NCBI RefSeq assembly: GCF_000745265.1
Contig: NZ_JQNN01000001.1
Coordinates: 4,712,001 to 4,776,000 of the forward strand
DNA: 64,000 nucleotides
Reading direction: 5' to 3'
From: Massilia sp. 9096
Lineage (GTDB): Bacteria > Pseudomonadota > Gammaproteobacteria > Burkholderiales > Burkholderiaceae_D
Shown: positions 28,063 through 54,699 of the stretch, piece by piece
Layout: every line of letters begins with the position of its first letter
Numbering within the stretch: the first letter of the stretch is position 1
Notes under the pieces: model-generated
What the model saw: the letters and a program-made list of their open reading frames with translations, nothing else
What the model was told of the DNA's origin: nothing
Database searches by the model: none
Translations under genes and position numbers: made by a program

Positions 28063-28128
28063 TGTCCGGCTGTCCGCCCGGTGCGCGCGGACAGCGTTGC
28101 GGACACCTCGCGGACACCGATCCGGACA
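28063..28128 (+). promoter_or_regulatory. Cluster of six TGTCCG/CGGACA boxes, candidate enhancer for sigma-54 activator
   Basis: In the 403-base gap 27921-28323, which holds no gene I can support, TGTCCG occurs at 28063 and 28071 and its reverse complement CGGACA at 28088, 28100, 28111 and 28123, spaced about one helical turn. They lie 75-140 bases upstream of a sigma-54 type promoter. The same boxes recur in front of the hlyD-like gene at 54646-54699, whose operon encodes a sigma-54 activator. Confidence 0.65.
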
Positions 28129-28202
28129 CTCTGCAGGAAGCTCGCCCGCCCGCCGTGGCGCGTAGCCGCAAGCACACGCGGGCTCACGACGAGCCCTGCA
28201 TA

Positions 28203-28218
28203 TGGCATAAAGATTGCC
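28203..28218 (+). promoter_or_regulatory. Sigma-54 (-24/-12) promoter of the tldD cluster
   Basis: TGGCATAAAGATTGCC has the invariant GG and GC separated by exactly ten bases and matches TGGCACG-N4-TTGC(A/T) at nine of the twelve defined positions. Transcription would start near 28229-28230, leaving a leader of about 95 bases before the first tldD. The activator boxes upstream strengthen the call. Confidence 0.68.
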
Positions 28219-28323
28219 TATCCAAAACGTCAACTTGCTGCTAATGTGCAACGCACACTGCAGTAGATAACAACGAGGTCCGGCTGCCGGGCCACCGGCC
28301 AAATCAGTGATTCAGGAGATAGT

Positions 28324-29961
28324 ATGGAACGGCGTACCTTCCTCAACCTCAGCGGTCTGGCCTTCGGCTCGATGCTGGTTCCCGTGTTCGGACGCGCGAT
28401 CGCCGCCGAAGAGATGCAATCCTCGATGCCGGCCGCGGCCAGGAAGATGCTGGCCGACACGGCGCTGAATGCCGCCACCAAGGCCGGCGCCAGCTACTGC
28501 GACGTGCGCATCGGCCGCTACCTGAACCAGTACGTCATCACGCGCGACCTGAACGTCGAGAACGTGGTCAACACCGAATCGGCCGGCATCGGCGTGCGCG
28601 TACTGTGCAACGGCGCCTATGGCTTCGCGGCCACCAACGACATGAGCCCGGACGGCGTCGCGGGCGCGGCGCGCCAGGCGGTGGCGATCGCCAAGGCCAA
28701 CGCCAAGCTGCAGACCGAACCGGTGCAACTGGCGCCGGTCAAGGGCGTGGGCGAGGTGGCGTGGTCGACGCCGGTGGTCAAGGACTGGCGTTCGGTGCCG
28801 ATCAAGGACAAGGCCGAGATGCTGATCACGGCCAACAAGGCCGGCATGGACGGCGGCGCCAACTTCATGACCTCGATGCTGTTCCAGGTGCACCAGTCGA
28901 AGTATTTCGCTTCGACCGACGGCTCCTACATCGACCAGGACATCCAGCGCCTGTGGGCGCCGGTGACCGCGACCGCCATCGACAAGGCCAGCGGCAAGTT
29001 CCGTTCGCGCAGCGGCCTGTCGGCGCCGGTCGGCATGGGCTACGAATACTTCGACGCGCGTCCCGAGCACAAGATCAAGGCCGCAGGCGGCGTCGCCACG
29101 CTGTACACCAAATCGTACGACATCGTCGAGGACGCGCGCGCCGCGGGCCGCGACGCCAAGCGCAAGCTGACCGCGAAATCGGTCACGCCGGGCAAGTACG
29201 ACCTGATGCTCTCGCCGGAAAACATCTGGCTGACCATCCACGAATCGGTCGGCCACCCGACCGAACTGGATCGCGTGCTCGGCTACGAAGCCAACTACGC
29301 CGGCACCAGCTTCGCCACGCTGGACAAGTGGCAGAGCAAGAAATTCAATTACGGTTCGCCGCTGGTGAACATCGTCGCCGACAAGACCACCCCGGGCTCG
29401 CTCGGCTACGTCGGCTACGACGACGAGGGCGTGAAAACCAAGCGCTGGGACATCATCAAGGACGGCATCCTGGTCAGCTACCAGGCCACGCGCGACCAGG
29501 CCCACATCATCGGCAAGACCGAGTCGGACGGCTGCTCGTACGCCGACAGCTGGAGCAACGTGCAGTTCCAGCGCATGCCGAACGTGTCGCTCCAGGCCGG
29601 CCAGAAGAAGCTGACCCCGGACGAGATGGTCAAGGACATCAAGAAGGGCATCTACATCGTCGGCGACGGCTCGTTCTCGATCGACCAGCAGCGCTACAAC
29701 TTCCAGTTCGGCGGCCAGCTGTTCTACGAGATCAACAACGGCAAGATCGGCCAGATGCTGGAAGACGTGGCCTACCAGTCGAACACCCAGGACTTCTGGA
29801 ATGCCTGCAGCGCGCTGTGCGACGACCGCGACTGGCGCATGGGCGGCTCCTTCTTCGACGGCAAGGGCCAGCCGAGCCAGGTCAGCATCGTGTCGCACGG
29901 CGCCTCGACGGCGCGCTTCAACGGCATCAACGTCATCAACACCGCCCGCAAGATCGGCTAA
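28324..29961 (+). CDS. TldD-type metalloprotease, copy 1, with twin-arginine signal
   Basis: 545 residues. The N-terminus MERRTFLNLSGLAFGSML is a Tat signal (RRTFLN) ending near AIAAEE, so export of the folded protein is predicted, unlike cytoplasmic E. coli TldD. The metal motif His306-Glu-Ser-Val-Gly-His311 is followed by PTELDRVLGYEANYAG. The C-terminal zinc Cys known in E. coli TldD is not seen; the matching segment reads FFDGKGQ. TldD works only with TldE as a heteromer that trims unfolded peptides. First gene behind the sigma-54 promoter; tldE follows after 18 bases. It is highly similar to copy 2. Confidence 0.9.
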   Translation: MERRTFLNLSGLAFGSMLVPVFGRAIAAEEMQSSMPAAARKMLADTALNAATKAGASYCDVRIGRYLNQYVITRDLNVENVVNTESAGIGVRVLCNGAYGFAATNDMSPDGVAGAARQAVAIAKANAKLQTEPVQLAPVKGVGEVAWSTPVVKDWRSVPIKDKAEMLITANKAGMDGGANFMTSMLFQVHQSKYFASTDGSYIDQDIQRLWAPVTATAIDKASGKFRSRSGLSAPVGMGYEYFDARPEHKIKAAGGVATLYTKSYDIVEDARAAGRDAKRKLTAKSVTPGKYDLMLSPENIWLTIHESVGHPTELDRVLGYEANYAGTSFATLDKWQSKKFNYGSPLVNIVADKTTPGSLGYVGYDDEGVKTKRWDIIKDGILVSYQATRDQAHIIGKTESDGCSYADSWSNVQFQRMPNVSLQAGQKKLTPDEMVKDIKKGIYIVGDGSFSIDQQRYNFQFGGQLFYEINNGKIGQMLEDVAYQSNTQDFWNACSALCDDRDWRMGGSFFDGKGQPSQVSIVSHGASTARFNGINVINTARKIG

Positions 29962-29979
29962 GGCAGGGAGAACCAGAAC

Positions 29980-31317
29980 ATGACCATCCTGACCCAGGAA
30001 CAGACCAAACACATCTGCGACACGGTGCTCAAGGCGAGCAAGGCCGACGAATGCACCGTCAGCGTGAGCGGCACCCGTGACGGCAACATCCGCTTCGCGC
30101 GCAACGCGGTGTCGACCGCCGGCCTGGCCGACGACGTCAGCATCGCCGTGCAGGTCGCCTTCGGCAAGCGCGTCGGTACCGCCACCATCAACGAGTTCGA
30201 CGACAAGTCGCTGGAAAAAGTCGTCCGCCGCGCCGAGGACCTGGCGCGCCTGGCGCCGGAAAATCCGGAGTTCGTGCCGGCCGTGGGCAAGCAGGACTTC
30301 AAGGCATCCAACACCTTCAACGCCAAGACCGCCGCCATCGATCCGGAGTACCGTGCGCAGGCGGCCGCGTACGCGATCGAAGCCTGCAAGAAGAAGGACC
30401 TGGTCGCCGCCGGCTTCTTTTCCGACAGCACCGCGTTCTCGACGGTGGCCAACTCGAACGGCGTATTCGGCCACCAGACCCAGACCGGCCTCGACTTCAC
30501 CTGCACCGTGCGCACCAGCGATGGCCGCGGCTCGGGCTGGGTCAAGCGCTCGGCCACCGACGCCGCCCGCTTCGATCCGCGCGAAGCGGCCGACGTGGCG
30601 ATCGAGAAGGCCTTGAAATCGGTCGACGCGAAGGCGCTCGAGCCGGGCCGCTACACCGTGATCCTGGAGCCGGCCGCGACCTCCGAACTGCTGGGTAACA
30701 TGCTGGTCGGCTTCGACGCGCGCCAGACCGACGAAGGGCGCAGCTTCCTCTCCAAGAAGGGCGGCGCCTCGCGCCTGGGCGACAAGCTGTTCGACGAAAA
30801 GGTCAACATCTGGGCCGACCCGTGGAACCCGGACGTGCCGGTGCTGCCGTGGGACGACCGCAGCCTGATCGCGCGCCAGCGCATGGACCTGGTCAAGAAC
30901 GGCAAGGTCAACGCGCTGCAGTATTCGCAGTACTGGGCCAAGAAGAAGGGCGTGATGGCGACCGCGATGCCGGGCAATATCATCATGGCCGGTACCGACA
31001 AGAGCACGCAGGAGCTGATCGCCAGCACCAAGAAAGGCATCCTGGTCACGCGCACCTGGTACATCCGCATGGTCGATCCGCAGTCGGTGCTGCTGACCGG
31101 CCTGACCCGCGACGGCACCTTCTACATCGAGAACGGCCAGATCAAGTACCCGGTCAAGAACTTCCGCTTCAACGAGAGCCCGGTGACCATGCTGAACAAC
31201 ATCGAGGAGATCGGCAAGCCGGTGGTGATCGGCGGCGACGAAGTGCCGTTCCAGATGCTGATCCCGCCGATGAAGGTCCGCGATTTCAACTTCACGTCGC
31301 TGTCGGACGCGGTCTAA
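29980..31317 (+). CDS. TldE/PmbA-type partner subunit, copy 1
   Basis: 445 residues, no signal peptide, no HExxxH motif: the non-catalytic partner. Family features include NIRFARNAVSTAGL, TINEFDDKSLEKVVRRAEDL, and a C-terminal block IENGQIKYPVKNFRFNESPV. TldD and TldE form a barrel enclosing the active site, so TldE should be needed for activity. As TldD here has a Tat signal and TldE none, TldE might be carried out bound to TldD (inference). Followed after 13 bases by the second tldD. Confidence 0.9.
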   Translation: MTILTQEQTKHICDTVLKASKADECTVSVSGTRDGNIRFARNAVSTAGLADDVSIAVQVAFGKRVGTATINEFDDKSLEKVVRRAEDLARLAPENPEFVPAVGKQDFKASNTFNAKTAAIDPEYRAQAAAYAIEACKKKDLVAAGFFSDSTAFSTVANSNGVFGHQTQTGLDFTCTVRTSDGRGSGWVKRSATDAARFDPREAADVAIEKALKSVDAKALEPGRYTVILEPAATSELLGNMLVGFDARQTDEGRSFLSKKGGASRLGDKLFDEKVNIWADPWNPDVPVLPWDDRSLIARQRMDLVKNGKVNALQYSQYWAKKKGVMATAMPGNIIMAGTDKSTQELIASTKKGILVTRTWYIRMVDPQSVLLTGLTRDGTFYIENGQIKYPVKNFRFNESPVTMLNNIEEIGKPVVIGGDEVPFQMLIPPMKVRDFNFTSLSDAV

Positions 31318-31330
31318 GCACCGGGCACCC

Positions 31331-32968
31331 ATGGAACGCCGCACCTTCCTCAACCTGTGCGCCGGCACCGCCGGCAGCCTGCTGGTCCCGGTCTTCGGCA
31401 ACGCGGTCGCCGCCGAAGAGCTGATCGGCACGATGCCGGCCAGCGCCAAGAAAGCCATCGCCGACACCGCGCTGAACGCCGCCACCAAGGCCGGCGCCAG
31501 CTATTGCGACGTGCGCATCGGGCGCTACCTGAACCAGTACATCAACACGCGCGACCTCGCGGTGCAGGGCGTGACGAATACCGAGTCGAGCGGCGTCGGC
31601 GTGCGCGTGATCGCCAACGGCGCCTACGGCTTCGCCGCCACCAACCAGATGACGCCGGACGCGGTCGCCAACGCGGCGCGCCAGGCGGTCGCCATCGCCA
31701 AGGCCAACGCCAGGCTGCAGGACCGGCCGCTCGAGCTGGCGCCGGTCAAGGGCGTGGGCGAAGTCGCCTGGGCCACGCCGATGAAGAAGGACTGGCGCAC
31801 GGTCGCGGTCAAGGACAAGGCCGAGATGCTGATCGCCGCCAACAAGGCCGGCCTGGACGCGGGCGCCAGCTTCATGACGGCCAACCTGTTCCAGATAAAC
31901 CAGCAGAAGTATTTTGCTTCCACCGACGGCTCCTACATCGACCAGGACATCCATCGCCTGTGGGCGCCGATCACCGCCACCGCGGTCGACAAGGCGACCG
32001 GCAAGTTCCGCTCGCGCGCCGGCCTGGCGCCGCCGGTGGGCATGGGCTACGAATGGTTCGACGCGCGCGCCGAGCACAAGGTCCGCGCAGCCGGCGGCGT
32101 CACCACGCTGTACAACGGCAGCTACGACATCGTCGAGGAAGCGGCCAGCGCCGGCCGCCAGGCGCGCCAGAAGCTGGGCGCGAAAAGCGTCGACCCGGGC
32201 AAGTACGACCTGGTGCTGGCGCCGGAAAACCTGTTCCTGACCATCCACGAGTCCGTGGGACACCCGACCGAACTCGATCGCGTGCTCGGCTATGAAGCCA
32301 ACTACGCCGGCACCAGCTTCTGCACGCTGGACAAGTGGGAATCGAAGAGATTCAGTTTCGGCTCGCCCCTGGTGAACATCGTCGCCGACAAGGACACGCC
32401 GGGTTCGCTCGGCGCAGTCGGCTACGACGACGAAGGCGTCAAGCCGAAGCGCTGGGACATCATCAAGGACGGCATCCTGGTCAACTACCAGGTCACGCGC
32501 GACCAGGCCCACATCATCGGCGAAAAGGAATCGCAGGGCTGCTCGTACGCGGACAGCTGGAGCAAGGTGCAGTTCCAGCGCATGCCGAACGTGTCGCTCG
32601 CCGCCGGCAAGAAGCGGCTCACGCCAGACGAGATGGTCAAGGACGTCAAGCGCGGCATCTACATCCTCGGCCGCGGCTCGTACTCGATCGACCAGCAGCG
32701 CTACAACTTCCAGTTCGGCGGCCAGCTGTATTTCGAAATCAAGGACGGCAAGATCGGCCAGATGCTCGAGGATGTGGCGTACCAGTCGAACACCCAGGAT
32801 TTCTGGAATGCCTGCAGCGCCGTGTGCGACGAACGCGACTGGCGCATGAGCGGCTCCTTCTTCGACGGCAAGGGGCAGCCGAGCCAGGTCAGCGCGGTCT
32901 CGCACGGCGCACCGACCACGCGCTTCAACGGCATCAACGTGATCAACACCGGCCGCAAGATCGGTTAA
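31331..32968 (+). CDS. TldD-type metalloprotease, copy 2, with twin-arginine signal
   Basis: 545 residues, same length as copy 1 and nearly collinear throughout. Tat signal MERRTFLNLCAGTAGSLL ending near AVAAEE; metal motif His306-Glu-Ser-Val-Gly-His311; FFDGKGQ at the position of the missing zinc Cys. The differences are spread through the protein, so this is an old duplication rather than a recent copy. The gene begins 14 bases after the tldE1 stop with little room for a ribosome site (CACCGGGCACCC), suggesting coupled translation. Confidence 0.9.
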   Translation: MERRTFLNLCAGTAGSLLVPVFGNAVAAEELIGTMPASAKKAIADTALNAATKAGASYCDVRIGRYLNQYINTRDLAVQGVTNTESSGVGVRVIANGAYGFAATNQMTPDAVANAARQAVAIAKANARLQDRPLELAPVKGVGEVAWATPMKKDWRTVAVKDKAEMLIAANKAGLDAGASFMTANLFQINQQKYFASTDGSYIDQDIHRLWAPITATAVDKATGKFRSRAGLAPPVGMGYEWFDARAEHKVRAAGGVTTLYNGSYDIVEEAASAGRQARQKLGAKSVDPGKYDLVLAPENLFLTIHESVGHPTELDRVLGYEANYAGTSFCTLDKWESKRFSFGSPLVNIVADKDTPGSLGAVGYDDEGVKPKRWDIIKDGILVNYQVTRDQAHIIGEKESQGCSYADSWSKVQFQRMPNVSLAAGKKRLTPDEMVKDVKRGIYILGRGSYSIDQQRYNFQFGGQLYFEIKDGKIGQMLEDVAYQSNTQDFWNACSAVCDERDWRMSGSFFDGKGQPSQVSAVSHGAPTTRFNGINVINTGRKIG

Positions 32969-33017
32969 CGCAAGACCGCTCAACGCAAGACCGATCAAGG
33001 CAGAGGGAACCTACCGC

Positions 33018-34355
33018 ATGAAACAGCTGACCCAGGACGAAGCCCAGAGTATCTGCCAGCGTGTCCTCAAGTATTCGACCGCCGACGATTGCAGCGTCTC
33101 GATCGCCGGCAACCGCAGCGGCAACATCCGCTTCGCGCGCAACGCCGTCTCGACCGCCGGCCTGAACGATAACCGCACCTTGAACGTGACGGTCGCCTTC
33201 GGCAAGCGCCAGGGCACCGCCAGCGTCAACGAGTTCGACGACGCCTCGCTCGAGCGCGCGGTGCGCCGCGCCGAGGACGTCGCGCGCCTGGCGCCGGAAA
33301 ACCCGGAGTACGTCGGCATTTCGGCCAAGCAGGATTTCAAGCCGAGCGAAGAGTATTTCGCATCGACCGCCGCCATCGACCCGGAGTTCCGCGCCGAGGT
33401 GGCCGCGCGCGCGATCGAGGGCGGCCGCAAGAACAAGCTGGTCACCGCCGGCTTCTTCACCGACACGACCGGCTTCGAGACCATCGCCAACTCGAAGGGC
33501 GTGTTCGGCCACCGCCAATTCACCGGCCTGCAATTTACCTGCACCGCGCGTACCGAAGACGGCCGCGGCTCGGGCTGGGTGACGCGCGGCGCCAGCGATG
33601 CGAAACGCTTCGACGCGCGCGAGGCGATCGAAGTCGCGATCGAAAAAGCGATGCACTCGGTCGATGCGAAAGCGATCGAGCCGGGCCGCTACACCGTGAT
33701 TCTGGAGCCGGCCGCGACGTCCGAGCTGCTGGGCCGCATGTTCGGCGCCTTCGATGCGCGCAACGCCGACGAGGGCCGCAGCTTCCTGGCCAGGAAGGGC
33801 GGCGGCAACCGCCTGGGCGAAAAGCTGTTCGACGACCACGTCAACGTCTGGGCGGACCCGTGGAACCCGGACGTGCCGGTCAGCCCGTGGGATACCCAAT
33901 CGATGCTGGCGCGCCGGCGCCAGGACCTGATCAAGGACGGCAAGGTCGCCTCGCTCGACTACTCGCGCTTCTGGGCGCAGAAGAAGGGCGTGCAGCCGAG
34001 TGCGCGCCCCGGGAACATCATCATGGCCGGCGGCGCCAAGTCGCTCGAGGAGCTGATCCAGGATACCAGGAAGGGCGTGCTGGTCACGCGCACCTGGTAC
34101 ATCCGCTCGGTCGACCCGCAGTCGCTGCTGCTGACCGGCCTGACGCGCGACGGCACCTTCTATATCGAAAACGGCAAGATCAAGTACCCGGTCAAGAACT
34201 TCCGCTTCAACGAAAGCCCGGTCACGATGCTCAACAACGTCGAGGAGCTCGGCAAGCCGACCGTGGTGGCGCCGGACGAGGTGCGCTTCCAGATGCTGAT
34301 CCCGCCGATGCGCCTGCGCGACTTCAATTTCACGTCGCTGTCGGACGCGGTGTAA
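33018..34355 (+). CDS. TldE/PmbA-type partner subunit, copy 2
   Basis: 445 residues, collinear with copy 1 and again without signal peptide or metal motif. Shared blocks: GNIRFARNAVSTAGLNDNRT, RGSGWVTRGASDAKRFDARE, YTVILEPAATSELLGRMFGA, LLTGLTRDGTFYIENGKIKY. The pair tldD2-tldE2 probably forms its own heteromer or mixes with pair 1. The 49-base gap after tldD2 contains a partly repeated segment (CAAGACCG) and GAGGGAACCTACCGC before the start codon. Confidence 0.9.
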   Translation: MKQLTQDEAQSICQRVLKYSTADDCSVSIAGNRSGNIRFARNAVSTAGLNDNRTLNVTVAFGKRQGTASVNEFDDASLERAVRRAEDVARLAPENPEYVGISAKQDFKPSEEYFASTAAIDPEFRAEVAARAIEGGRKNKLVTAGFFTDTTGFETIANSKGVFGHRQFTGLQFTCTARTEDGRGSGWVTRGASDAKRFDAREAIEVAIEKAMHSVDAKAIEPGRYTVILEPAATSELLGRMFGAFDARNADEGRSFLARKGGGNRLGEKLFDDHVNVWADPWNPDVPVSPWDTQSMLARRRQDLIKDGKVASLDYSRFWAQKKGVQPSARPGNIIMAGGAKSLEELIQDTRKGVLVTRTWYIRSVDPQSLLLTGLTRDGTFYIENGKIKYPVKNFRFNESPVTMLNNVEELGKPTVVAPDEVRFQMLIPPMRLRDFNFTSLSDAV

Positions 34356-34373
34356 GGGCAGGCGGCTTCCAGC

Positions 34374-34994
34374 ATGGCCAACTTCGACTTTTATTTCACG
34401 CGCCTGATGTACGAATCGGGCGATTGGGACGTCGACCAGCGCATGCCCAGCAACGTGCTCAACTCGCTGGTCGAGTACACGACCCTGCGCGTGGACACGG
34501 CCGAGCGTCTGGTCAACCTGTCCGACCCAAAGATGCTGGAAGCGCCGTTCTGCTACCTGGCCGGGCACAAGCTGGTGCAGTTCACGCCCGCCGAGCGCAG
34601 GAACTTCGAGCGCTACGTGAAGGGCGGCGGCTTCGTCTTCGTGGACGATTGCAACCACGACGTCGACGGGCTGTTCGCGAAATCGTTCGAGGCCGAGATG
34701 GCAAAGATCTTCGGCGCGTCCGCCATGAAGAAGATCCCCAACAACCACCGCCTCTATTCCAGCTTCTTCCAGTTCGACGGCCCGCCCAACACGGCGGTCG
34801 AATTGAACGGCTGGGGCGACGATCTGGTGCACGAGTACCTGCGCGCCATCGAGATCAATGGGCGCATCGCCGTCCTGTATTCGAACAAGGACTACGGCTG
34901 CGAGTGGGACTACGACTTCCGCAACAAGCGCTGGCTGGCGGTCGACAACACCCGCTTCGCGGTCAATATCATTCAATACGCACTGGGAGCATAG
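34374..34994 (+). CDS. DUF4159 domain protein
   Basis: 206 residues, no signal peptide. FDFYFTRLMYESGDWDVDQR at the N-terminus, YLAGHKLVQFTPAERRNFER, GGGFVFVDDCNHDVDG and VLYSNKDYGCEWDYD are DUF4159 hallmarks; the fold is thought to resemble glutamine-amidotransferase/vWA-associated domains. Usually found beside MoxR and DUF58 genes, as here, but its biochemical role is unknown. It links the Tld pairs to the MoxR part of the cluster: 18 bases after tldE2 and 3 bases before the moxR-like gene. Confidence 0.82.
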   Translation: MANFDFYFTRLMYESGDWDVDQRMPSNVLNSLVEYTTLRVDTAERLVNLSDPKMLEAPFCYLAGHKLVQFTPAERRNFERYVKGGGFVFVDDCNHDVDGLFAKSFEAEMAKIFGASAMKKIPNNHRLYSSFFQFDGPPNTAVELNGWGDDLVHEYLRAIEINGRIAVLYSNKDYGCEWDYDFRNKRWLAVDNTRFAVNIIQYALGA

Positions 34995-34997
34995 CAA

Positions 34998-36002
<1,005 letters not shown>

Positions 36003-36003
36003 C

Positions 36004-45221: not shown

Positions 45222-45246
45222 GGTTGGCTCGCGTTCCGTGTCGGGT

Positions 45247-46473: not shown

Positions 46474-47241
46474 TCAGCCCAGGTGGTCGCGCATCCATTC
46501 CTTCAGACCATTGACCCAGGTCTTGGCCGGCAGGTTGTAGCGCCGCTTGATCTCGGCGGCGCGCTCGTACAGCACGGCGAAATCGATTTGCGGCGCCTCC
46601 TTGAACGCGATCACGACGATATTCGCGTCGTGCACCTCGGGCAGCCAGACCACGGCATCGAAGGCCTGCTCCATCGCCTGCAGGTTCTTGTCGTAGTTGA
46701 TGAAGTCGCCGAACACGTTGGCGGTCATGATGCCGCCCGGCGCCAGGCAGTCGGCGCAGGCCTGGTAGAACTCGGGCGTGTCGAGCACCGGGCCGCGCGC
46801 TTGTTCGTCATATAAATCGACCTGCAGCACGTCGAGCGTGCCGTGGCGGCGCGCATCCATCACGAAGTCGAGCGCGTCCATCTCGCGCACGTCCAGCCGC
46901 GCATCGTTGGGCGGCAGGCCGAAATAGTCGTGGCAGATCGCGATCACGTTCGGGTTCAGCTCGGCGACCTCGACCCGTGCCTCGGGAAAACGCTGCCAGC
47001 AGAACTTGGTCAGCGCGGCGCTGCCCAGCCCGAGCTGGGCGATGCGGCGCGGCCGTTCGACGAACAGCATCCACATCATCATCATCTGCACGTATTCGAG
47101 TTCGATCGCGTCCGGACGGGCCAGACGCATCGCGCCCTGCACCCAGGAGGTGCCCAGGTGCAGCGAGCGCACGCCTTCGAATTCGGTGATGGTGGCCGGC
47201 GGGTGGCCGGGCTGGGAGAAGCGGGGGTCGGGACTAGGCAT
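46474..47241 (-). CDS. Spermidine synthase-like methyltransferase-fold protein
   Basis: 255 residues. RIAQLGLGSAALTKFCWQRF is the nucleotide-binding glycine motif, AELNPNVIAICHDYFGL binds the propylamine donor in true enzymes, and LDVLQVDLYDEQARGPVLDT replaces the catalytic DSTDP-type segment. Lacks the N-terminal beta domain of complete spermidine synthases; such short homologues often have unknown function. It follows the kinase gene by 21 bases and may be the last gene of the sigma-54 controlled exporter operon. Confidence 0.8.
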   Translation of the reverse strand: MPSPDPRFSQPGHPPATITEFEGVRSLHLGTSWVQGAMRLARPDAIELEYVQMMMMWMLFVERPRRIAQLGLGSAALTKFCWQRFPEARVEVAELNPNVIAICHDYFGLPPNDARLDVREMDALDFVMDARRHGTLDVLQVDLYDEQARGPVLDTPEFYQACADCLAPGGIMTANVFGDFINYDKNLQAMEQAFDAVVWLPEVHDANIVVIAFKEAPQIDFAVLYERAAEIKRRYNLPAKTWVNGLKEWMRDHLG

Positions 47242-47262: not shown

Positions 47263-48624
47263 TTAGCCGACCGGCAGGATCATCGTCACCGCCAGCCCGC
47301 CGCCCTCGCGGTTGGCCAGCAGGATGCGCCCGCCGTGCGCCTCGGCGATCTCGCGCGCGAGCGCGAGGCCCAGGCCGGTGCCGCTGCGCTTGGTCGAATA
47401 GAACGGTACCAGCGCATTGGTCAGCACGGCGTCGTTCATGCCGGCGCCGCGGTCGAGCACGTCGATGCGCACCACCTCGTGCGCCCCGTCCCGGTTTGGA
47501 TCATTGATGCGGCGGATCTGCAGCTCGACCTGGGTCGGATGCGAGCCGGATTCGTGGGCGTTCTTGAGCAGGTTGATGAGGGCCTGCTCCATCTGCACGC
47601 GGTCGATCCGGGCCGGTTCCTCGGGCAGCGCGCCGACCAGGCGGAACGCCACGTGCGCGGCCAGGCCGGCCACGAAGTCGCGCCAGGGGATGGTGTCGAT
47701 GCGCGGCGTCGGCAGCTTGGCGAAGCGCGCATAGCCGAGGATGAAGCTTTCCAGGTGGCGCGTGCGCTCGCCGATGGTGTCCAGGATCTCCGGCAGGCGC
47801 TCGACCTGGCCGCGCCGCACCAGCGCCGCGCCGGAGTGGGCGAGCGAGGCCAGCGGGGCCAGCGAATTGTTCAACTCGTGGCTGATCACGCGGATCACCT
47901 TTTTCCAGGTCTGCACCTCCTGGCGCCGCAGCTCGACCGTGAGCTGGCGCAGCAGCAGCAGTTCGTGGCGCCGCCCGTTCAGGCTGAAGTCGCGCCGCGC
48001 CAGGTGGTACACCTCCTCGTCCTCGCCTTCGCCGGCGGTGAACAGGCCGTCGCCGCCGCGCGCCAGCGCCTCGACCAGCGCCGGCGTCGCCTGGGCCAGC
48101 ACCTCATCCAGCGCATGGCCTTCGAGCTTGCGGCCTTCGAACAGCAGCTGGCGCGCGGCCAGGTTGGCGTAGACGATGCTGCGCTGGGCGCCGGCTTGCC
48201 CGCTCACCAGCAGCATCGCCACCGGCGTGTTCTGCACCATGGTGTCGAGCAGCAGCTCGCGCTGGACCAGGTCGAGGCGCTGCGCACGCAGCACGTCGCC
48301 GAGCGCGTTGTGGGCCTGGACCAGGTCGGACAGCTCGTCGTTCTGGGCCCAGTGCAGGCCGAACGAAAAATCGCCGTCGCGGTAGCTCGTCACGGTACCT
48401 TCCAGCGCCCGGAACAGCGACAGGATCGGCTGGATTTGCGAGCGGATCGTGATCAGCGCGATCGGCACCACGCACAGCAGGCAGATCGCCAGCACCGCCA
48501 GCGGCCGGCCGGGCATCAGGTGGTCAAGCGCCAGCGCGACCAGGATCCCGACCGCCAGCAGCGTGCCGACCAGCGCCGACCAGCGCGTGACCAGCGAAAG
48601 CCGAAAGCCGCGCGTGGTTTTCAT
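47263..48624 (-). CDS. Sensor histidine kinase of sigma-54 two-component system (NtrY-like)
   Basis: 453 residues. Two membrane helices near the start (WSALVGTLLAVGILVALALD; PLAVLAICLLCVVPIALITI), HAMP-like and PAS segments (ALEGTVTSYRDGDFSFGLHW; LLLDTMVQNTPVAMLLVSGQ), phospho-acceptor His in VISHELNNSLAPLASLAHSG, and ATPase motifs (INLLKNAHESG, DRGAGMN, GTGLGLALAREIAE). The HELNNSLAP pattern is that of NtrY-type kinases working with sigma-54 activators. Twelve bases downstream of the activator gene. Almost no periplasmic domain, so it may sense within the membrane. Confidence 0.9.
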   Translation of the reverse strand: MKTTRGFRLSLVTRWSALVGTLLAVGILVALALDHLMPGRPLAVLAICLLCVVPIALITIRSQIQPILSLFRALEGTVTSYRDGDFSFGLHWAQNDELSDLVQAHNALGDVLRAQRLDLVQRELLLDTMVQNTPVAMLLVSGQAGAQRSIVYANLAARQLLFEGRKLEGHALDEVLAQATPALVEALARGGDGLFTAGEGEDEEVYHLARRDFSLNGRRHELLLLRQLTVELRRQEVQTWKKVIRVISHELNNSLAPLASLAHSGAALVRRGQVERLPEILDTIGERTRHLESFILGYARFAKLPTPRIDTIPWRDFVAGLAAHVAFRLVGALPEEPARIDRVQMEQALINLLKNAHESGSHPTQVELQIRRINDPNRDGAHEVVRIDVLDRGAGMNDAVLTNALVPFYSTKRSGTGLGLALAREIAEAHGGRILLANREGGGLAVTMILPVG

Positions 48625-48636: not shown

Positions 48637-49980
48637 TCAGCCCGCGCGCGCGATGCCGAGGCGCTCCATGCGGCGATATAGCGCCTGACGCGACAGCCCG
48701 AGCTCGCCGGCTGCCTGGGCGATCACGCCGCCCGCGCGCGCGAGCGCCTGCACGATGGCGTCGCGGTCCGGTTCGGCCTCCTGCGCGCCGCCGGTGGGCG
48801 CCACCGGCAGGCCGAGGTCGGCCGGCTTGATGACCTCGCCCTGGGCCAGCAGGTTGGCGCGCGCCATCACGTTTTTCAGTTCGCGCACGTTGCCGGGCCA
48901 GGCGTGCGCCTGCAGCGCGGCCTCGGCGCTCGGCTGCAGGGACTTGCCGGGCGCCAGGAAGCCGCGCGCCAGCGGCAGGATGTCGCCCGGACGCGCGGCC
49001 AGCGCCGGCAGCTTCAGTTCGATCAGGTTGAGACGGTAGTACAAGTCTTCGCGGAAGGTTCCGGCGCGGATCATCGCCTGCAAATCCGCATTGGTGGCGC
49101 TGATCACGCGCACCTTCACCTGCCGCTCGCGGTTCGAGCCGAGCCGCTCGAAGCGTCCGGTCTCGAGCACGCGCAGCAGTTTCATCTGCCCGGCCAGCGG
49201 CAGGTTGCCGATCTCGTCCAAAAACAGCGTGCCGCCGTCGGCCGCCTCGAACTTGCCCTCGCGCGCCTTGGAAGCGCCGGTGTAGGCGCCGGCGTCCGCG
49301 CCGAACAGCTCGGCCTCGATCAGCTCGGCGGGCAGGGCACCGCAGTTGAGCACGACGAAGGGGCCCTCGCGCACGCTGGAGTTGGCCTGGATGATCTCGG
49401 CGATGCGCTCCTTACCGGTGCCGTTCGGACCGGTGATCAGGACCGGCACGTCGGCGCGCGAGACCTGGCAGGCCAGGCTCAGCACGCGCTCGGTGGCCGG
49501 GTCGGCCCAGACCAGGCCGCGCAGGTCGTACTGCCGTTCCAGTTCGTTGCGGGCGCGGCGTTCGCGCTGCAGCCGCTGGGTCAGGGCGCGATTGGCCTGG
49601 CAAAGTTCGATCAGGTTGGTGACGGTCGCCAGCAGGCGGTCGTCGTTCCAGGGCTTGGGCAGGTAGTCGGCGGCGCCGGCCTTGACCAGGTCGACCGCCG
49701 CGTCGAGGTGGGTCCAGGCCGTCAGCAGGATCACCGGCAGGTCGGGATGGCGCTTGCGGATCTCCTTGAACAGCGCCACGCCTTCCTCGCCGGACGTCGT
49801 GTCGGCGCTGAAGTTCATGTCCTGGATCACCAGGTCCACCGGCTCGCGTGCGAGGACGTCCAGGCCCTCCTCCGGCGAGGCGGCGCGCAGCGCGCCGATG
49901 TCGTGCAGGGAAAACAGCACGTCGAGCGCCATGCCGACGGCGGCGTTGTCATCGATGATCAGAACGGTAGGCATGGCCAT
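48637..49980 (-). CDS. Sigma-54 dependent response regulator (NtrC family)
   Basis: 447 residues. Receiver domain with VLIIDDN and phospho-Asp in LVIQDMNFSA, AAA+ domain with Walker A ITGPNGTGKE, the sigma-54 contact loop GAYTGA (common variant of GAFTGA), Walker B GGTLFLDEIGNL and the arginine-rich RLNLIELKLPAL; a C-terminal Fis-type helix-turn-helix (AQAAGELGLSRQALYRRMER). ATG at 49980 or 49974. It lies in the same operon as the exporter genes and is preceded by them, so it is probably autoregulated through the promoter at 54587. Candidate binding boxes are at 54646-54699 and 28063-28128. Confidence 0.95.
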   Translation of the reverse strand: MAMPTVLIIDDNAAVGMALDVLFSLHDIGALRAASPEEGLDVLAREPVDLVIQDMNFSADTTSGEEGVALFKEIRKRHPDLPVILLTAWTHLDAAVDLVKAGAADYLPKPWNDDRLLATVTNLIELCQANRALTQRLQRERRARNELERQYDLRGLVWADPATERVLSLACQVSRADVPVLITGPNGTGKERIAEIIQANSSVREGPFVVLNCGALPAELIEAELFGADAGAYTGASKAREGKFEAADGGTLFLDEIGNLPLAGQMKLLRVLETGRFERLGSNRERQVKVRVISATNADLQAMIRAGTFREDLYYRLNLIELKLPALAARPGDILPLARGFLAPGKSLQPSAEAALQAHAWPGNVRELKNVMARANLLAQGEVIKPADLGLPVAPTGGAQEAEPDRDAIVQALARAGGVIAQAAGELGLSRQALYRRMERLGIARAG

Positions 49981-49994: not shown

Positions 49995-51224
49995 TCAGAC
50001 GCTGCGGGTTGCAGTCGCCGGCGAGATGCTGGCCGCTTTCCAGGCCGGACCGTAGGCCGCCAGCACACCGAGCAGCCAGAAGCCGAGCGCCCCGAACACG
50101 AGGTAGCCGGCCGGCAGGCGCGCCATCTCGAGCTGGCTCACCAGCAGCTGGTTCAGCGCCAGGCCGAGCGCCACGCCGCCGAACACGCCGGCGCTGGTGA
50201 TCATGAAATTCTCGAGCAGGAAGTAGCGCAGGATGTCGACGCGGCGCGCCCCCAGCGCGCGGCGCACGCCGATCTGCTTGCGGCGCTGCGTGACCCACAG
50301 GCTGGCCATGCCGACGATGCCGCAGCAGGTGATCAGCAGCAGCAGGGCGCTGACCGCCATCAGTGTCCATTGCAGGGCGACGTCGTTGCGGTAGCGGCGC
50401 CGGCGGTCGCCTTCGACGGTGTCGGCCTTGACGATCAGCGGCAGGGCCGAGGACTTGCGCAGCGCCGCTTCGGCTTCCTTCATCACGCGGTCGCGCTGGC
50501 CCGGCTCGGTGCGGATCGCGAACATCGCCTTGCCGGAGCCGAACTGGCGCTGCGGATAGATGACGCCCTGCCAGTCGTCGTTGCTGGTTTGGGCATGCGC
50601 GCTGATCAGGCGCTCGACGACGCCGACCACACGGCTGCCGGCGCCGGGTTTGCTGGTGACGTACAGCGTCTTGCCGATCGCTGACTGCCCCGGCCACAGC
50701 TTGTCCGCCAGCGCCCGGGTGACGATGATGGCCTGCGGCCTCACCTCTTCGATGCTGTCGTTGATTTCCGCGACCTCGCCGGGCAGGAAGTCGCGGCCGT
50801 CGACCAGCTGCAGGCCGAAGGTCTTGACCAGCGAATCGCCGGATACGTACACGGAAGCGACCGTGCTGGTCTTTTCCTGGCGCGGGTCCAGCTTCACGCT
50901 GGTGACCCAGCCGCTCTGCGACATCGGCATCTGGCTGACCTGCGCGACCGAGGCCACGCCGCCGACGGCGCGCAGTAGGTCGGCTTGGCGCTTGATGTCG
51001 GCGAGCTGCTTTTCCGGCGTCTCGTCGCCGAGCGTGCGCACCGACAGGTAGAAGGTCGAGGCTTCGTCGGACAGCCCGGACGGGCGGGTCACCACGCCGC
51101 GCCGCTCGCTGACGATGTGGACGGCATTGGCCAGGATGGCCAGGCTCATGGCGACTTGCAGGGCCACCAGGATCGGACCGGTCTTGTTGCGCAGCAGCGC
51201 GGACAGGATGGGACGGAATTCCAT
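49995..51224 (-). CDS. FtsX-type ABC permease, second of pair
   Basis: 409 residues. One N-terminal helix (GPILVALQVAMSLAILANAV), a MacB-type periplasmic domain (about 50-275) and three C-terminal helices (WTLMAVSALLLLITCCGIVG; MITSAGVFGGVALGLALNQL; YLVFGALGFWLLGVLAAYG) with RRKQIGVRRALGARRVDILR, the coupling segment of MacB/FtsX permeases. Works with the ATPase and the other permease as a heterodimeric exporter or mechanotransmission pump. Ten bases after the first permease gene, fourteen before the activator gene. Confidence 0.9.
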   Translation of the reverse strand: MEFRPILSALLRNKTGPILVALQVAMSLAILANAVHIVSERRGVVTRPSGLSDEASTFYLSVRTLGDETPEKQLADIKRQADLLRAVGGVASVAQVSQMPMSQSGWVTSVKLDPRQEKTSTVASVYVSGDSLVKTFGLQLVDGRDFLPGEVAEINDSIEEVRPQAIIVTRALADKLWPGQSAIGKTLYVTSKPGAGSRVVGVVERLISAHAQTSNDDWQGVIYPQRQFGSGKAMFAIRTEPGQRDRVMKEAEAALRKSSALPLIVKADTVEGDRRRRYRNDVALQWTLMAVSALLLLITCCGIVGMASLWVTQRRKQIGVRRALGARRVDILRYFLLENFMITSAGVFGGVALGLALNQLLVSQLEMARLPAGYLVFGALGFWLLGVLAAYGPAWKAASISPATATRSV

Positions 51225-51234: not shown

Positions 51235-52545
51235 TTACTGGGATTTGAGCTGGATGGCGGGCGTGACCTGGCAGGCGCGCCAGGTCGGCAGCAAGCCGGC
51301 CAGGACCGCCGCGCCCACGGCCAGCACGAAGGTCAGGCCCAGCATTTTGACGTCCATGGTGGCGACGCCCGCCATCTCCTTGTTGTTCAGGCGCAGCAGG
51401 GCCAGGGTGCCGAAGGCAAGCAGCAGTCCGAGCCCGCCGCCGACCAGTCCGACCACGCCGGTCTCGATCAGGAACTGGCGGAAGATCTCGGCGCGCGAGG
51501 CGCCCAATGCGCGGCGCACGCCGATCTCGGAGGCGCGCGCCGAGAACTTGGCGAGCAGCAGGCCGACCGTGTTCACCAGGCACAGCAGCAGGAAGCCGAA
51601 CGCCAGCCAGGCCTGCAGCTTGCTGTCCTTCGGGACCACCTTGCCGTATTCCAGCCATTCACGGACGTTGTACAGCATGTTCGGCGCGTGGCGCTTCAGG
51701 CGGCCCAGCTTGCGCTGTTCGTCCGCGTAGCTGTCGAGCCAGGATTGCAAGTCGCCGCGTGCACCCGCCGATTCCGTCTCGACCCAGGCGGTGATCCAGG
51801 TGCATTCCGAGGCCAGGAAGGCGGCGAAGCCGGGATCGGTCGTGCCCGAGCAGCTGATGCCGCCGTTGATGCCGGCCTCGTGGCGAACCGCGCTGGCCAG
51901 CGGGATAAAGAACTCCTCGCTGTTGCCGAAGCGTGGCCCGCCCGAGAGCTGGTAAAAGCGCGGCAGCGGCGCCCAGTCGCCGGTCACGCCGACGATGGTG
52001 TAGGGGACACCCAGCATCGTCAGGCGCTGGCCGACCGGATCGGTGTCGCCGTACAGCTTGTCGGCCAGCCGGCGGCTCAGGACCACGACGTCGGCGCCGC
52101 GCGCCTCGTCGGCCGCGCTCCAGGCCTGGCCGCGCAGGAAGGGCACGTCGAACATGGCGAAGAAGTCATGCGTGGGCGCGAGCCCGGCGGCGCTGAAAGG
52201 CTGCATGTCGCGCCTGGGCGGTTCGACCGGGACGCTCACGGCGTACAAGGCGGTACGGCGCACGCCCTGGCCGCTCTTGACGATGCTCATCGCATCCTGG
52301 TAGCTGATCTGGCGGTCCTTGTTCGGCTCCCTCGGCGTGTAGTCTTCGAGCGGACCATTGTCGATGATCGGCACGAACAGGCGCTCGCTCTTGTGCGGGA
52401 TCGGGTCGTTCGACATCATGTGCAGGATGGTCAGCGTCGACATGCTGGCCGCGACGCCGACCGCCAGCGTGATCACCATCAGCGCGGTCAGCACCGGATT
52501 GCGGCGCAGGCTGCGCACGCCGAGCTTGAAGTAATAGCTGAACAT
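51235..52545 (-). CDS. FtsX-type ABC permease, first of pair
   Basis: 436 residues. N-terminal helix (LTALMVITLAVGVAASMSTL), periplasmic MacB-PCD domain (about 45-290), then helices LQAWLAFGFLLLCLVNTVGL, VVGLVGGGLGLLLAFGTLAL and a third near VLAVGAAVLAGLLPTW. The coupling motif RASEIGVRRALGASRAEIFR is intact. Together with the second permease it is expected to form the membrane part of a MacB-like complex that uses the HlyD-type adaptor encoded upstream. The substrate is unknown: a peptide, lipid or antibiotic are all possible. Confidence 0.9.
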   Translation of the reverse strand: MFSYYFKLGVRSLRRNPVLTALMVITLAVGVAASMSTLTILHMMSNDPIPHKSERLFVPIIDNGPLEDYTPREPNKDRQISYQDAMSIVKSGQGVRRTALYAVSVPVEPPRRDMQPFSAAGLAPTHDFFAMFDVPFLRGQAWSAADEARGADVVVLSRRLADKLYGDTDPVGQRLTMLGVPYTIVGVTGDWAPLPRFYQLSGGPRFGNSEEFFIPLASAVRHEAGINGGISCSGTTDPGFAAFLASECTWITAWVETESAGARGDLQSWLDSYADEQRKLGRLKRHAPNMLYNVREWLEYGKVVPKDSKLQAWLAFGFLLLCLVNTVGLLLAKFSARASEIGVRRALGASRAEIFRQFLIETGVVGLVGGGLGLLLAFGTLALLRLNNKEMAGVATMDVKMLGLTFVLAVGAAVLAGLLPTWRACQVTPAIQLKSQ

Positions 52546-52554: not shown

Positions 52555-53262
52555 TTATGCGGTGGCGGCGCTGTCGACCAGCGTCGGGGTCTTGCGCACC
52601 AGGTCCGACACCTGACCGTCGACGATGTGCACGTTGCGGCTGGTGCGCACCGCCAGCTCGGGGTCGTGGGTCACCATCAGGATGGTCGTGCCGGCGGCGT
52701 TGATCTCTTCCAGCAGATCCATCACGCCGCGCGCCATCTGCGTGTCGAGGTTACCGGTCGGCTCGTCGGCCAGCAGCAGCTTGGGCGAGCCCGCGAGCGC
52801 GCGCGCGATGGCCACGCGCTGCTGCTGGCCGCCGGACAGCTCGGCCGGATAGTGCTTCATGCGCGACGCCAGGCCGACCTTGGCCAGCGCGTCCTCGATG
52901 CGCTTCTTGCGTTCGGCGGCATTGAAGCCGCGGTAGCGCAGCGGGACGTCGACGTTGTCGAACAAATTCAGGTCCGGGATCAGGTTGAAACCCTGGAAGA
53001 TGAAACCGAGCTTTTCGTTGCGCAGCTTCGAGCGTGCGTTGTCGTCCAGGCCCTTGACGTTGACGCCGTCGAGCACGTACTCGCCCGCGCTGAATTCCTC
53101 GAGCAGGCCGGCGATGTTGAGGAAGCTGGTCTTGCCCGAGCCGGACGGGCCGGTCACGGTGACGAATTCGCCTTCCCTGACGTCGATCTCGAAGCCGCGC
53201 AGCGCGTGCGTCTCGATCATGTGGGTGCGATAAACTTTAGACAGATTGGTCATGCGCAGCAT
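52555..53262 (-). CDS. MacB/LolD-type ABC transporter ATP-binding protein
   Basis: 235 residues. Walker A GPSGSGKTS, Q loop FIFQGFNLI, signature LSGGQQQRVAIARAL, Walker B KLLLADEPTGNLD and switch His in MVTHDPELA. The DEPTGNLD string and length are characteristic of the MacB/LolD/FtsE class that drives FtsX-type permeases. Ten bases before the first permease gene, 22 bases after the adaptor gene. Confidence 0.95.
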   Translation of the reverse strand: MLRMTNLSKVYRTHMIETHALRGFEIDVREGEFVTVTGPSGSGKTSFLNIAGLLEEFSAGEYVLDGVNVKGLDDNARSKLRNEKLGFIFQGFNLIPDLNLFDNVDVPLRYRGFNAAERKKRIEDALAKVGLASRMKHYPAELSGGQQQRVAIARALAGSPKLLLADEPTGNLDTQMARGVMDLLEEINAAGTTILMVTHDPELAVRTSRNVHIVDGQVSDLVRKTPTLVDSAATA

Positions 53263-53284
53263 GGTCTTGTCCTTTCAGGTTCGG

Positions 53285-54553
53285 TTATTGGTTGATCGAG
53301 ACGTTTTTTGCGTTGTTGAAGGCGTCGGTGCCGGCGACGACCACCTTGTCGCCTTGCTTCAGGCCGGACAGGATTTCGACCGCCGAGATGCTGGTCGCGC
53401 CCATCTGGATCGGCGTGCGGGTGGCGATGCCGCCGCGCACCACGTAGGCGTAGCGTCCGCCCTCGCTTTCGACGAAGGGACCGCGCGCCACCATCAGCAC
53501 GTTCGGCTTCTCTTCGATCAGCAGGCGCGCCGTCACGCGCTGGCTCTGGCGCAGTCCCTTGGGCTGCTCGCCATCGAAGCGCACGCGCGCCAGCACCATG
53601 TTCTTGACCACTTCCGGCGACAGCGCCGACAGCGTGCCGGTCGCGCTGCCCGAGGGCAGGGTGACTTCGGCGTGCATGCCGATGCCGAGATCGTTCACGT
53701 AGGTCTCCGGCACTTCGATCTCGACTTCGAGCTTGGACAAATCGACCAGCGTCATCAGCGGCGCGTTGGCGGCGACCACCATACGGTTCTGCACGTTGAG
53801 CGTGCCGATGAAGCCGTCGACCGGCGCGCGCACGGTCAGTTCGTCGACGCGGCGCTGCGCCTCTTCCATCGACAGGCGCGCGCGTTCCAGTTCGTTGGCC
53901 TTGGTCTTGATCGACAGCGCGACGTCGTCGCCTTCGAGCGTGGCCGCTTCGGCCGCGTGCCTGGCGCGGATCTGCGCCGACTGCACCGCGTCCTTGGCCT
54001 TCTGGAAGTCGATCTTGGCGATGATGCCGAGCTCGCCCACGCTCTGGTAGCGCTCCAGCGTGCGCTGGGCCGACAGGCGGTCGATCTCGGCGGTGTCGGC
54101 GTCCTTCTGCGCCAGCAGCTTCTGCTTGCGCGCCAGGATCTTCTGGCGCTCGACCTCGGCCTTCAATTGTTCGTAGTTCGAGACTTCCTTCTTCAATGCG
54201 TCGGACAGGTCCGGGGACTCCAGCACGGCCAGCACCTGGTCTTTCTTGACGGTGTCGCCGGCCGCGACCTTCAGGTTGACGGTGGCCGGCGCCTTGGCGT
54301 ACAGCGTCGGGCTGACCGCGGCGACGACGCGGCCGTTGACCGAGGCGTCGCGCACCAGCGTGCCGCGCGTGACCTCGGCGATGCGCAGGCGCGAGCCGCT
54401 GACCGACGCCTCGCTGCTGCGCCAGGTCGACAGCAGCGCCACGAACAGCACGGCGATGCCGGCCGCGCCGCCGATCCACAGGGTGCGGCGTTTCAGCTTG
54501 TGGCCGGCGCGCGGGGCGATGACGGCGTCTTGGTGGGAAGTGTCGCGGATCAT
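53285..54553 (-). CDS. HlyD/MacA-type periplasmic adaptor
   Basis: 422 residues. One N-terminal membrane helix (TLWIGGAAGIAVLFVALLST), biotinyl-lipoyl halves (LYAKAPATVNLKVAAGDTVK and VRAPVDGFIGTLNVQNRMVV) flanking a long coiled coil (about 110-215, rich in Glu, Lys, Gln), then beta-barrel and membrane-proximal domains. Bridges the inner-membrane transporter and an outer-membrane channel, which is not encoded here. GAGAAG six bases upstream fixes the start. It is the first gene behind a sigma-54 promoter whose start point would be about 22 bases before the ATG. Confidence 0.92.
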   Translation of the reverse strand: MIRDTSHQDAVIAPRAGHKLKRRTLWIGGAAGIAVLFVALLSTWRSSEASVSGSRLRIAEVTRGTLVRDASVNGRVVAAVSPTLYAKAPATVNLKVAAGDTVKKDQVLAVLESPDLSDALKKEVSNYEQLKAEVERQKILARKQKLLAQKDADTAEIDRLSAQRTLERYQSVGELGIIAKIDFQKAKDAVQSAQIRARHAAEAATLEGDDVALSIKTKANELERARLSMEEAQRRVDELTVRAPVDGFIGTLNVQNRMVVAANAPLMTLVDLSKLEVEIEVPETYVNDLGIGMHAEVTLPSGSATGTLSALSPEVVKNMVLARVRFDGEQPKGLRQSQRVTARLLIEEKPNVLMVARGPFVESEGGRYAYVVRGGIATRTPIQMGATSISAVEILSGLKQGDKVVVAGTDAFNNAKNVSINQ

Positions 54554-54586
54554 GATGGCTTCTCGTGTTTGGACACCCGAGTATTT

Positions 54587-54601
54587 GCACGAAGCGTGCC
54601 A
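54587..54601 (-). promoter_or_regulatory. Sigma-54 (-24/-12) promoter of the exporter/two-component operon
   Basis: On the minus strand TGGCACGCTTCGTGC followed by A has a perfect seven-base -24 element and the invariant GG-N10-GC spacing, with one deviation (G for T) in the -12 element. A start near 54575 gives a short leader that still contains the ribosome site of the adaptor gene. Confidence 0.8.
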
Positions 54602-54645
54602 CCGCCTAAGTCGTTGATTGCATTGAAAACCCTTGCTGCATAGGG

Positions 54646-54699
54646 TGTCCGGACGCGTCCGCGCGGCGGCGGGAACGGACAGCGCGGACAGCGCGGACG
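54646..54699 (-). promoter_or_regulatory. Cluster of TGTCCG/CGGACA-type boxes upstream of the exporter promoter
   Basis: Plus-strand positions: TGTCCG at 54646, CGGACG at 54650, CGTCCG at 54656, CGGACA at 54676 and 54685, CGGACG at 54694. They lie 45 to about 100 bases upstream of the -24 element, the usual place for an enhancer bound by an NtrC-type activator. The boxes match those before the tldD cluster. They also lie 90-140 bases before the divergent MutS-like gene. Confidence 0.65.

Follow-up and report, generated by a model that had tools for sequence, protein, structure and literature searches.

In the available portions of one paper, MacAB of Salmonella and Escherichia coli is placed under PhoPQ control, and BceS needs BceAB in order to respond, the MacB-family transporter and the two-component system having evolved together (PMC5985334). 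TldD/E, according to the accessible part of another paper, cuts unfolded peptides with little sequence preference (PMC10885120). An operon of Stenotrophomonas maltophilia that joins TldD to MoxR is described, in the excerpt available, as not yet characterised, and in every isolate studied some of its genes were less expressed in biofilm (PMC7688217). Here I analyse 64,000 nucleotides from Massilia sp. 9096 (contig NZ_JQNN01000001.1, positions 4,712,001 to 4,776,000; this whole stretch is called the window), which carry an operon of TldD/E and MoxR genes and, convergent with it, an operon for a MacB-type exporter together with a histidine kinase and an NtrC-type regulator. Comparative genomics predicts that one regulator, encoded with the exporter, switches on the exporter and TldD/E operons together, and I consider this likely.

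The S. maltophilia operon is like that of the window by description only, listing two TldD proteins, a MoxR-like ATPase, a membrane protein, a putative protease and hypothetical proteins, and in the excerpt available no link to a regulator or exporter is given (PMC7688217). It was also the sole mention of a TldD/E-MoxR operon that I found in the literature, as an uncharacterised operon with lower biofilm expression; in the accessible parts of two further papers, tldD is one table row in a section on flagella-related sigma promoters (PMC5493296) or is mentioned in passing (PMC5403827). In the open-licence literature, covered in part by the first 20 of about 700 matches, I recognised no paper in which a sigma-54 regulon with TGTCCG/CGGACA sites is connected with TldD/E or with an exporter of this type.

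The two loci are the convergent ends of one conserved neighbourhood. In a family set of 145 genomes, with the regulator called at E <= 1e-100, the regulator is present in 39, TldD1 in 26 and both in 24 (Fisher P 4e-15, a descriptive value that ignores phylogeny and kinship). In 21 of these 24 genomes the operons lie on one contig, convergent and 17,455-30,776 bp apart, and in the other three (G098, G108 and G132) the regulator and TldD loci are on different contigs. Co-occurrence in relatives, which an earlier note on this DNA had set as a test of its idea that one regulator may join the two loci, thus holds. The two TldD genomes without the regulator, G079 and G027, have neither a box cluster nor an intact promoter before TldD, and the 19 kb read beside TldD in G079 revealed neither an exporter gene nor one for the regulator. 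The 80 named regulator loci are the best of 513, and 31 of them, from Massilia, Telluria, Duganella and Pseudoduganella, reach as far as the gene that closes the TldD/E operon. The four Rugamonas loci did not show this gene, though their flanks of at most 10 kb may be too short to reach it. The exporter-regulator operon also occurs in Rugamonas, Janthinobacterium, Undibacterium, Thermomonas and Arenimonas.

In the window, the exporter operon spans 54553 to 47263 on the minus strand (adaptor, ATPase, two permeases, regulator and kinase) and is preceded by putative control elements:

54646-54690, minus strand: box cluster upstream of the exporter operon, three boxes, two TGTCCG and one CGGACA on the minus strand
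54607-54619, minus strand: AATCAACGACTTA, resembling the consensus of integration host factor (IHF), between the boxes and the exporter promoter
54586-54601, minus strand: sigma-54-type -24/-12 element TGGCACGCTTCGTGCA, putative promoter of the exporter operon
53285-54553, minus strand: HlyD/MacA-type periplasmic adaptor (membrane fusion protein), first gene of the exporter operon
52555-53262, minus strand: ATP-binding cassette (ABC) ATPase, nearest NCBIfam model DarD, below its cut-off
51235-52545, minus strand: MacB_PCD/FtsX permease 1, by family match
49995-51224, minus strand: MacB_PCD/FtsX permease 2, by family match
48637-49980, minus strand: NtrC-family response regulator with receiver, sigma-54 AAA+ domain with GAYTGA, and Fis-type helix-turn-helix; proposed regulator of both operons
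47263-48624, minus strand: histidine kinase with two transmembrane-like segments, about 8 residues between them

An open reading frame at 53250-54602, which has no family match, was rejected as the adaptor frame; the true adaptor frame starts at 54553. The regulator carries the Pfam domains Response_reg, Sigma54_activat and HTH_8 of an NtrC-family protein, and its sigma-54 contact loop, GAYTGA, is a one-residue variant of GAFTGA. It is the sole full sigma-54 activator match in the window, where the MoxR gene gives a weak AAA match; the Massilia genome as a whole has nine full matches. Its helix-turn-helix, LGLSRQ[AS]LYRR[ML], is nearly invariant, being kept in 78 of 80 named loci, with one of the two exceptions cut. 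On the 3' side of the kinase (43902-47241, minus strand) lie spermidine-synthase-like, octopine-dehydrogenase-like and AMP-ligase-like genes; the latter two, perhaps an opine-type small-molecule unit, were matched in just 3 of the 80 named loci.

The TldD/E operon spans 28324 to 41471 on the plus strand and runs from TldD1 through TldE1, TldD2, TldE2, DUF4159, MoxR, DUF58 and a BatA-type gene to two proteins without a family:

28063-28128, plus strand: array of six boxes, two TGTCCG and four CGGACA with a spacing of 11-12 bp, where an activator of the TldD/E operon may bind
28203-28218, plus strand: sigma-54-type -24/-12 element TGGCATAAAGATTGCC, putative promoter of the TldD/E operon
28324-29961, plus strand: TldD1, M103-type metallopeptidase (Pfam PmbA_TldD; match to TldD of 5nj5) with HESVGH and the N-terminal twin-arginine motif MERRTFL
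29980-31317, plus strand: TldE1 (Pfam PmbA_TldD), HExxxH absent, signal peptide not evident
31331-32968, plus strand: TldD2, with HESVGH and twin-arginine motif, 436 of 545 residues identical to TldD1
33018-34355, plus strand: TldE2 (Pfam PmbA_TldD), HExxxH absent, signal not evident
34374-34994, plus strand: DUF4159 protein (Pfam)
34998-36002, plus strand: MoxR-type AAA+ ATPase (Pfam)
36004-36906, plus strand: DUF58 protein (Pfam)
36831-37904, plus strand: BatA N-terminal / double-transmembrane protein, start codon uncertain
37888-39903, plus strand: large protein without Pfam match, kept in the operon of relatives
39900-41471, plus strand: protein without Pfam match, the last conserved gene of the operon, found in the 31 named loci mentioned and also in G079 and G027

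The TldD and TldE proteins show the three PmbA_TldD domains of the M103 family, with HExxxH kept in TldD and lost in TldE. A scan of the window with PADLOC gave nothing relevant, only two weak matches on the MoxR ATPase. Directly 3' of the operon lies an IS4/5-type transposase gene (41518-42684, plus strand).

The total number of boxes in the window is ordinary (45 seen against 43.99 expected), so that an unusual count as such was rejected (45 against a rounded 44) and the clustering, not the count, is the signal. Six boxes within 66 bp were reached in none of 200 first-order Markov resamples of the window, whose maximum of three was reached in 8 of the 200. This array lies 75 to 140 bp upstream of TGGCATAAAGATTGCC. 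The earlier note was right about clustered TGTCCG/CGGACA boxes at both loci, six at 28063-28128 and three at 54646-54690, each upstream of a sigma-54-type element, and mistaken in calling them the only two clusters: a third, of three TGTCCG boxes on the minus strand within 23 bp (55731-55753), lies inside a MutS-V-like open reading frame and is probably a coding coincidence. Its further claim that the window has only two good GG-N10-GC promoters stands for the site at 54601, the only one with at most one mismatch to TGGCACRNNNNTTGCW, and falls for that at 28203, which is one of ten with two mismatches. The exporter promoter was also said to drive the only sigma-54 activator gene; the regulator is indeed the only full match in the window, although it comes fifth in the operon and does not follow the promoter immediately. 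The sigma-54-type and IHF-like sites are assigned by likeness to the consensus sequences. An IHF-like site is present at the window's own exporter promoter (54619-54607).

Before the exporter operon, the arrangement recurs in nearly all loci read. The adaptor start is contained in 79 of the 80 named loci (L190 has no adaptor in the locus and was left out), and all 79 upstreams carry a TGG[CT][AG][CT]-N6-TGC element, the closest one lying 46-69 bp before the adaptor. Within 260 bp of the adaptor there is at least one box in 79 of 79 and at least two in 73 of 79. When the element is required as TGGC[AG][CT]-N6-TGC with at least two boxes 25-130 bp further upstream, 73 of the 79 named upstreams qualify, while outside the exporter promoter the same combination occurs at just two places in 1,617,154 bp of named loci (L163 and L157, of which L163 alone was inspected). 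Of 78 named loci, 65 have an IHF-like site in the 130 bp before the adaptor, against a rate of 0.008 per stretch on the plus strand of the loci at large. In the family set, where G044 and G069 were left out (adaptor partial or unmatched) and G104 and G063 were retained in spite of misassigned adaptor starts, at least two boxes fall within 80 bp in 34 of 37 adaptor upstreams; 0, 1, 2, 3, 4, 5 and 7 boxes occur in 1, 2, 5, 17, 8, 3 and 1 of these upstreams, respectively.

Before TldD the same signal is frequent. There are 26 TldD1 upstreams, 25 of them complete over 400 bp, and the background consists of 3,845 windows from the named loci. At least three boxes within 80 bp occur in 15 of the 25 complete upstreams and in one of the 3,845 background windows. 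The upstream of G108, cut by a contig end and at first left out, was pieced together from a short, presumably adjacent contig with matching sequence that bears array and promoter, which raises the count to 16 of 26. A sigma-54 element is found in 18 of the 25 complete upstreams (19 of 26 with G108), and boxes are present in 16 of the 19 upstreams with such an element, against none of the seven without. An IHF-like site follows the array in 8 of 15 cases, as at the exporter promoter. The arrays hold 3 to 7 boxes at -137 to -366 relative to the start codon, and this variation in number and position points to a function that was kept more than to common descent alone, with the caveat that arrays within one genus (g12) resemble each other.

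Over the 145 genomes, I searched for the strict pattern CGGACA-N2-8-CGGACA-N28-58-TGGCRY-N6-TGC, with the reversed pattern as control. It gave 44 rows at 35 distinct places, 21 at the exporter operon (that of G069 by position only), 10 at TldD1 and 4 elsewhere, against none for the control, and 27 of the 29 genomes with the strict pattern carry the regulator. The pattern misses the window's own two promoters, whose spacing is outside its range. Strict matches in G113:C82, G086 and G066 lie inside open reading frames and were set aside as chance. A looser combination, TGTCCG-N8-38-CGGACA plus promoter, was found in 30 genomes and includes the window's exporter promoter, with four matches of the reversed control and more stray places; several further places lie in the regulator-negative genomes G051, G130, G023, G141, G057 and G118. 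With the fixed spacing TGTCCG-N14-CGGACA there was no match in the Massilia genome, where the TldD array is the only triple CGGACA cluster (N2-14 spacing).

Boxes and promoter were also found before an M61 peptidase gene in G089, an S15/dienelactone-hydrolase-type secreted protein in Duganella aceris and an S41 peptidase gene in G098, and a box pair with a sigma-54-type promoter before a secreted open reading frame of about 600 amino acids without Pfam family in G107 (L249, G107:C9:84823), a genome whose adaptor upstream has no boxes. Each of these sporadic targets was seen in one genome, and only the Duganella case has a strict IHF-like match. That three of the four are of peptidase or hydrolase type fits a peptide-handling theme, though the number is small and the loci had been chosen for inspection. 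M61 genes as general members of the regulon were rejected: of 29 other M61 loci, one (L291) lacks upstream DNA and none of the 28 others has a box cluster. Three matches of the looser pattern (L245, L246 and L247, in G072, G040 and G089) were set aside as a different system with GTGACA/TGTCAC sites. There, GTGACA/TGTCAC palindromes and a TGGCAC-type promoter come after the gene of another response regulator, together with genes for small proline-rich secreted proteins and for a membrane protein of about 417-420 amino acids; this is possibly another unstudied sigma-54 unit.

The exporter-operon regulator is the natural candidate for reading the boxes, since nearly every genome read has them in front of this operon and the regulator's recognition helix hardly varies. 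In the mechanism proposed, the kinase (47263-48624) would phosphorylate the NtrC-type regulator (48637-49980), which would bind the TGTCCG/CGGACA half-site arrays and, often helped by IHF bending, activate sigma-54 RNA polymerase; binding to the boxes and the dependence on sigma-54 and IHF I infer from the sequences. The regulator would so switch on, by autoregulation, the exporter operon to which it belongs and, in roughly two thirds of the genomes with both loci, the TldD/E-DUF4159-MoxR-DUF58 operon. With only some 8 residues between its transmembrane-like stretches, the window kinase seems to lack a large sensor domain outside the membrane. A short kinase loop is a trait of the Bce type, and transporter-based sensing that feeds the kinase, by analogy with BceS, is a guess.

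As to purpose, a twin-arginine start RR-x-FL, judged from the sequence pattern, is present in all 28 TldD N-termini read (25 from the family, 3 from outside) and in TldD2 of the window; TldD1 and TldD2 both start with MERRTFLN. As twin-arginine starts are found on TldD1 and TldD2 and no evident signal on TldE1 and TldE2, TldD may be exported by twin-arginine translocation (Tat) with TldE carried along, and cleavage by TldD is probably periplasmic. The periplasm, where TldD/E is not known to act, would be a new site of action for it. The exporter would then expel a harmful or misplaced envelope peptide, and the exported TldD with its TldE would trim unfolded periplasmic peptides, supported by a membrane assembly of MoxR/DUF58/BatA type. 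Since TldD/E, in the accessible part of the source, acts on unfolded peptides (PMC10885120), I tentatively propose that the system responds to envelope peptides that are harmful or misplaced, a peptide being the presumed substrate; the odds are somewhat below even. More speculative still is a dedicated envelope peptide-handling system, in which one sigma-54 two-component system governs the MacB-type exporter and Tat-exported TldD/E with its MoxR/DUF58 assembly, TldE crosses bound to TldD, the exporter acts as the sensor, and further secreted peptidases are recruited in single lineages; in this full form it is doubtful.

A different purpose, compatible with joint regulation, would be the making of a ribosomally synthesised and post-translationally modified peptide or another self-made peptide, matured by TldD/E and secreted by the MacB/Dar-like exporter, with the regulator timing production. 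TldD/E does trim the leaders of such peptides, and M61 proteases are named among leader proteases in the available excerpt (PMC10885120). One relative has an M61 peptidase under the same signal, and the NCBIfam matches of ATPase and adaptor include parts of the darobactin exporter, below cut-off. However, a scan of 21 window proteins from 28.3 to 54.6 kb, which did not extend to short precursor open reading frames, gave no match to the enzyme families that make such peptides. Of the 39 regulator-positive genomes, 15 lack this TldD, and a TldD with a Tat-type N-terminus would not meet a cytoplasmic precursor. I regard this purpose as unlikely.

With respect to joint regulation itself, the boxes before TldD could be read by another regulator, with only the half-site shared. 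The window's genome has a second MacB-type exporter with a divergent NtrC-type paralog (G000:C1:4406853-4408392; L241, L258 and L299), with close relatives in several genomes of the family. The recognition helix of this paralog (G000:C1:4406956) is similar, SRAALYRKL against SRQALYRRM, and its divergent promoter has TGTCCG-N4-CGGACA in 6 of 17 paralog loci read and related sequences in others. However, its sites are compact 16-bp palindromes, unlike the arrays, its loop is GSFTDA and not GAFTGA, and G098, G011, G094, G144 and G106, all with TldD arrays, have no paralog match or only a distant one, whereas the main regulator is present in all 16 genomes with such arrays. That the paralog reads the TldD boxes is thus improbable, though shared half-sites leave room for cross-talk between it and the regulator.

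A number of observations weigh against one regulator for both operons. Because a paralog with a similar helix adjoins a TGTCCG-N4-CGGACA promoter, the half-site alone cannot identify the regulator. The TldD box cluster is absent in eight of the 24 genomes with both loci (G018, G040, G056, G113, G120, G126, G003 and G132), three of which (G120, G056 and G126) retain the sigma-54 element, and displaced arrays were not found when upstreams without a cluster were searched to 1,500 bp. At the cut-off used, 15 of the 39 regulator-positive genomes have no TldD locus, and outside the family TldD occurs in 3 of 368 other genomes of the class, without boxes. An IHF-like site is missing from the TldD promoter of the window and from 6 of the 14 remaining TldD arrays, and the mix of box orientations at a genome's two promoters is uncorrelated (Spearman -0.14, n=15). 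Without a promoter, CGGACA-N2-8-CGGACA pairs are not enriched in the Massilia genome (17, against 15 for the reversed control), and neither are triples over the 145 genomes (60 places, 28 at the two promoters and 32 elsewhere, mostly uninspected; the reversed control has more). A random scatter of boxes had been named as what would speak against the idea, and this applies to boxes without a promoter, which are at background level, but not to promoter-coupled clusters (35 against 0 reversed). That the box clusters are chance or neutral repeats, with sigma-54 elements there by coincidence, as the expected box total of the window and the unremarkable pairs and triples might suggest, is very improbable, since in several genera promoter-coupled clusters fall on these two promoters and the reversed control has none, and 73 of 79 named adaptor upstreams have a cluster against two other places in 1.62 Mb. 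What the earlier note supposed of one regulator joining two loci is thus well supported by co-occurrence, linkage, conserved arrays, the specificity of the signature and the absence of TldD boxes where the regulator is absent, and qualified by the missing boxes in 8 of 24 genomes and by a paralog with a related half-site. The purpose it suggested, to defend the envelope or to mature peptides, would be plausible.

Judged by sequence, parts of both operons belong to known families, and no curated equivalog is reached for GlrR, PrsR, MacB, the Dar proteins or TldD. The regulator is like NtrC-family proteins such as GlrR, PrsR, ZraR and AtoC in its receiver, sigma-54 AAA+ domain and Fis-type helix-turn-helix, and in half-site arrays before -24/-12 promoters; it differs in GAYTGA and in a variably spaced half-site, TGTCCG. 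No curated cut-off is reached among the 25 NCBIfam models listed, the scores being 281.7 bits against 763 for GlrR (NF011695) and 329 against 502.6 for the PEP-CTERM response regulator PrsR (TIGR02915). The likeness to GlrR sites that had been noticed therefore extends to the type of half-site only. With E. coli TldD/TldE (PmbA; 5nj5) the window proteins share the three PmbA_TldD domains and HExxxH in TldD and not TldE, but there are two TldD/E pairs, in an operon with MoxR, DUF58 and DUF4159, with a Tat-type N-terminus on TldD, and the cut-off of the E. coli-type equivalog (NF008006) is not reached (69.4 and 75 bits against 513).

The exporter is like MacAB-TolC and DarBCD in its HlyD-type adaptor, ABC ATPase and MacB_PCD/FtsX permeases. 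In MacB, however, an N-terminal ATPase is fused to the permease in a single chain, whereas in the window the ATPase and two permeases are separate genes; the scores are below MacB (NF007826; ATPase 203.4, permeases 66.5 and 43.6 bits, against 966) and below DarBCD (NF038007, NF038010 and NF038008; 253.9 of 375, 56.9 of 450 and 22 of 700). It also bears its own sigma-54 two-component system, in contrast to the PhoPQ control given for MacAB in the portion available (PMC5985334). Bce-type modules (BceRS-BceAB) are alike, as far as that portion goes, in pairing a MacB-family transporter with a two-component system (PMC5985334), and the window system differs in its NtrC/sigma-54 output, MacB-type periplasmic domains and an adaptor protein, absent from BceAB. 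Tying a TldD/E-MoxR operon to a specific regulator, promoter and exporter would offer a direct way to its inducer and substrate, and the predicted regulon would be, in logic, a Gram-negative counterpart of the peptide-sensing export modules.

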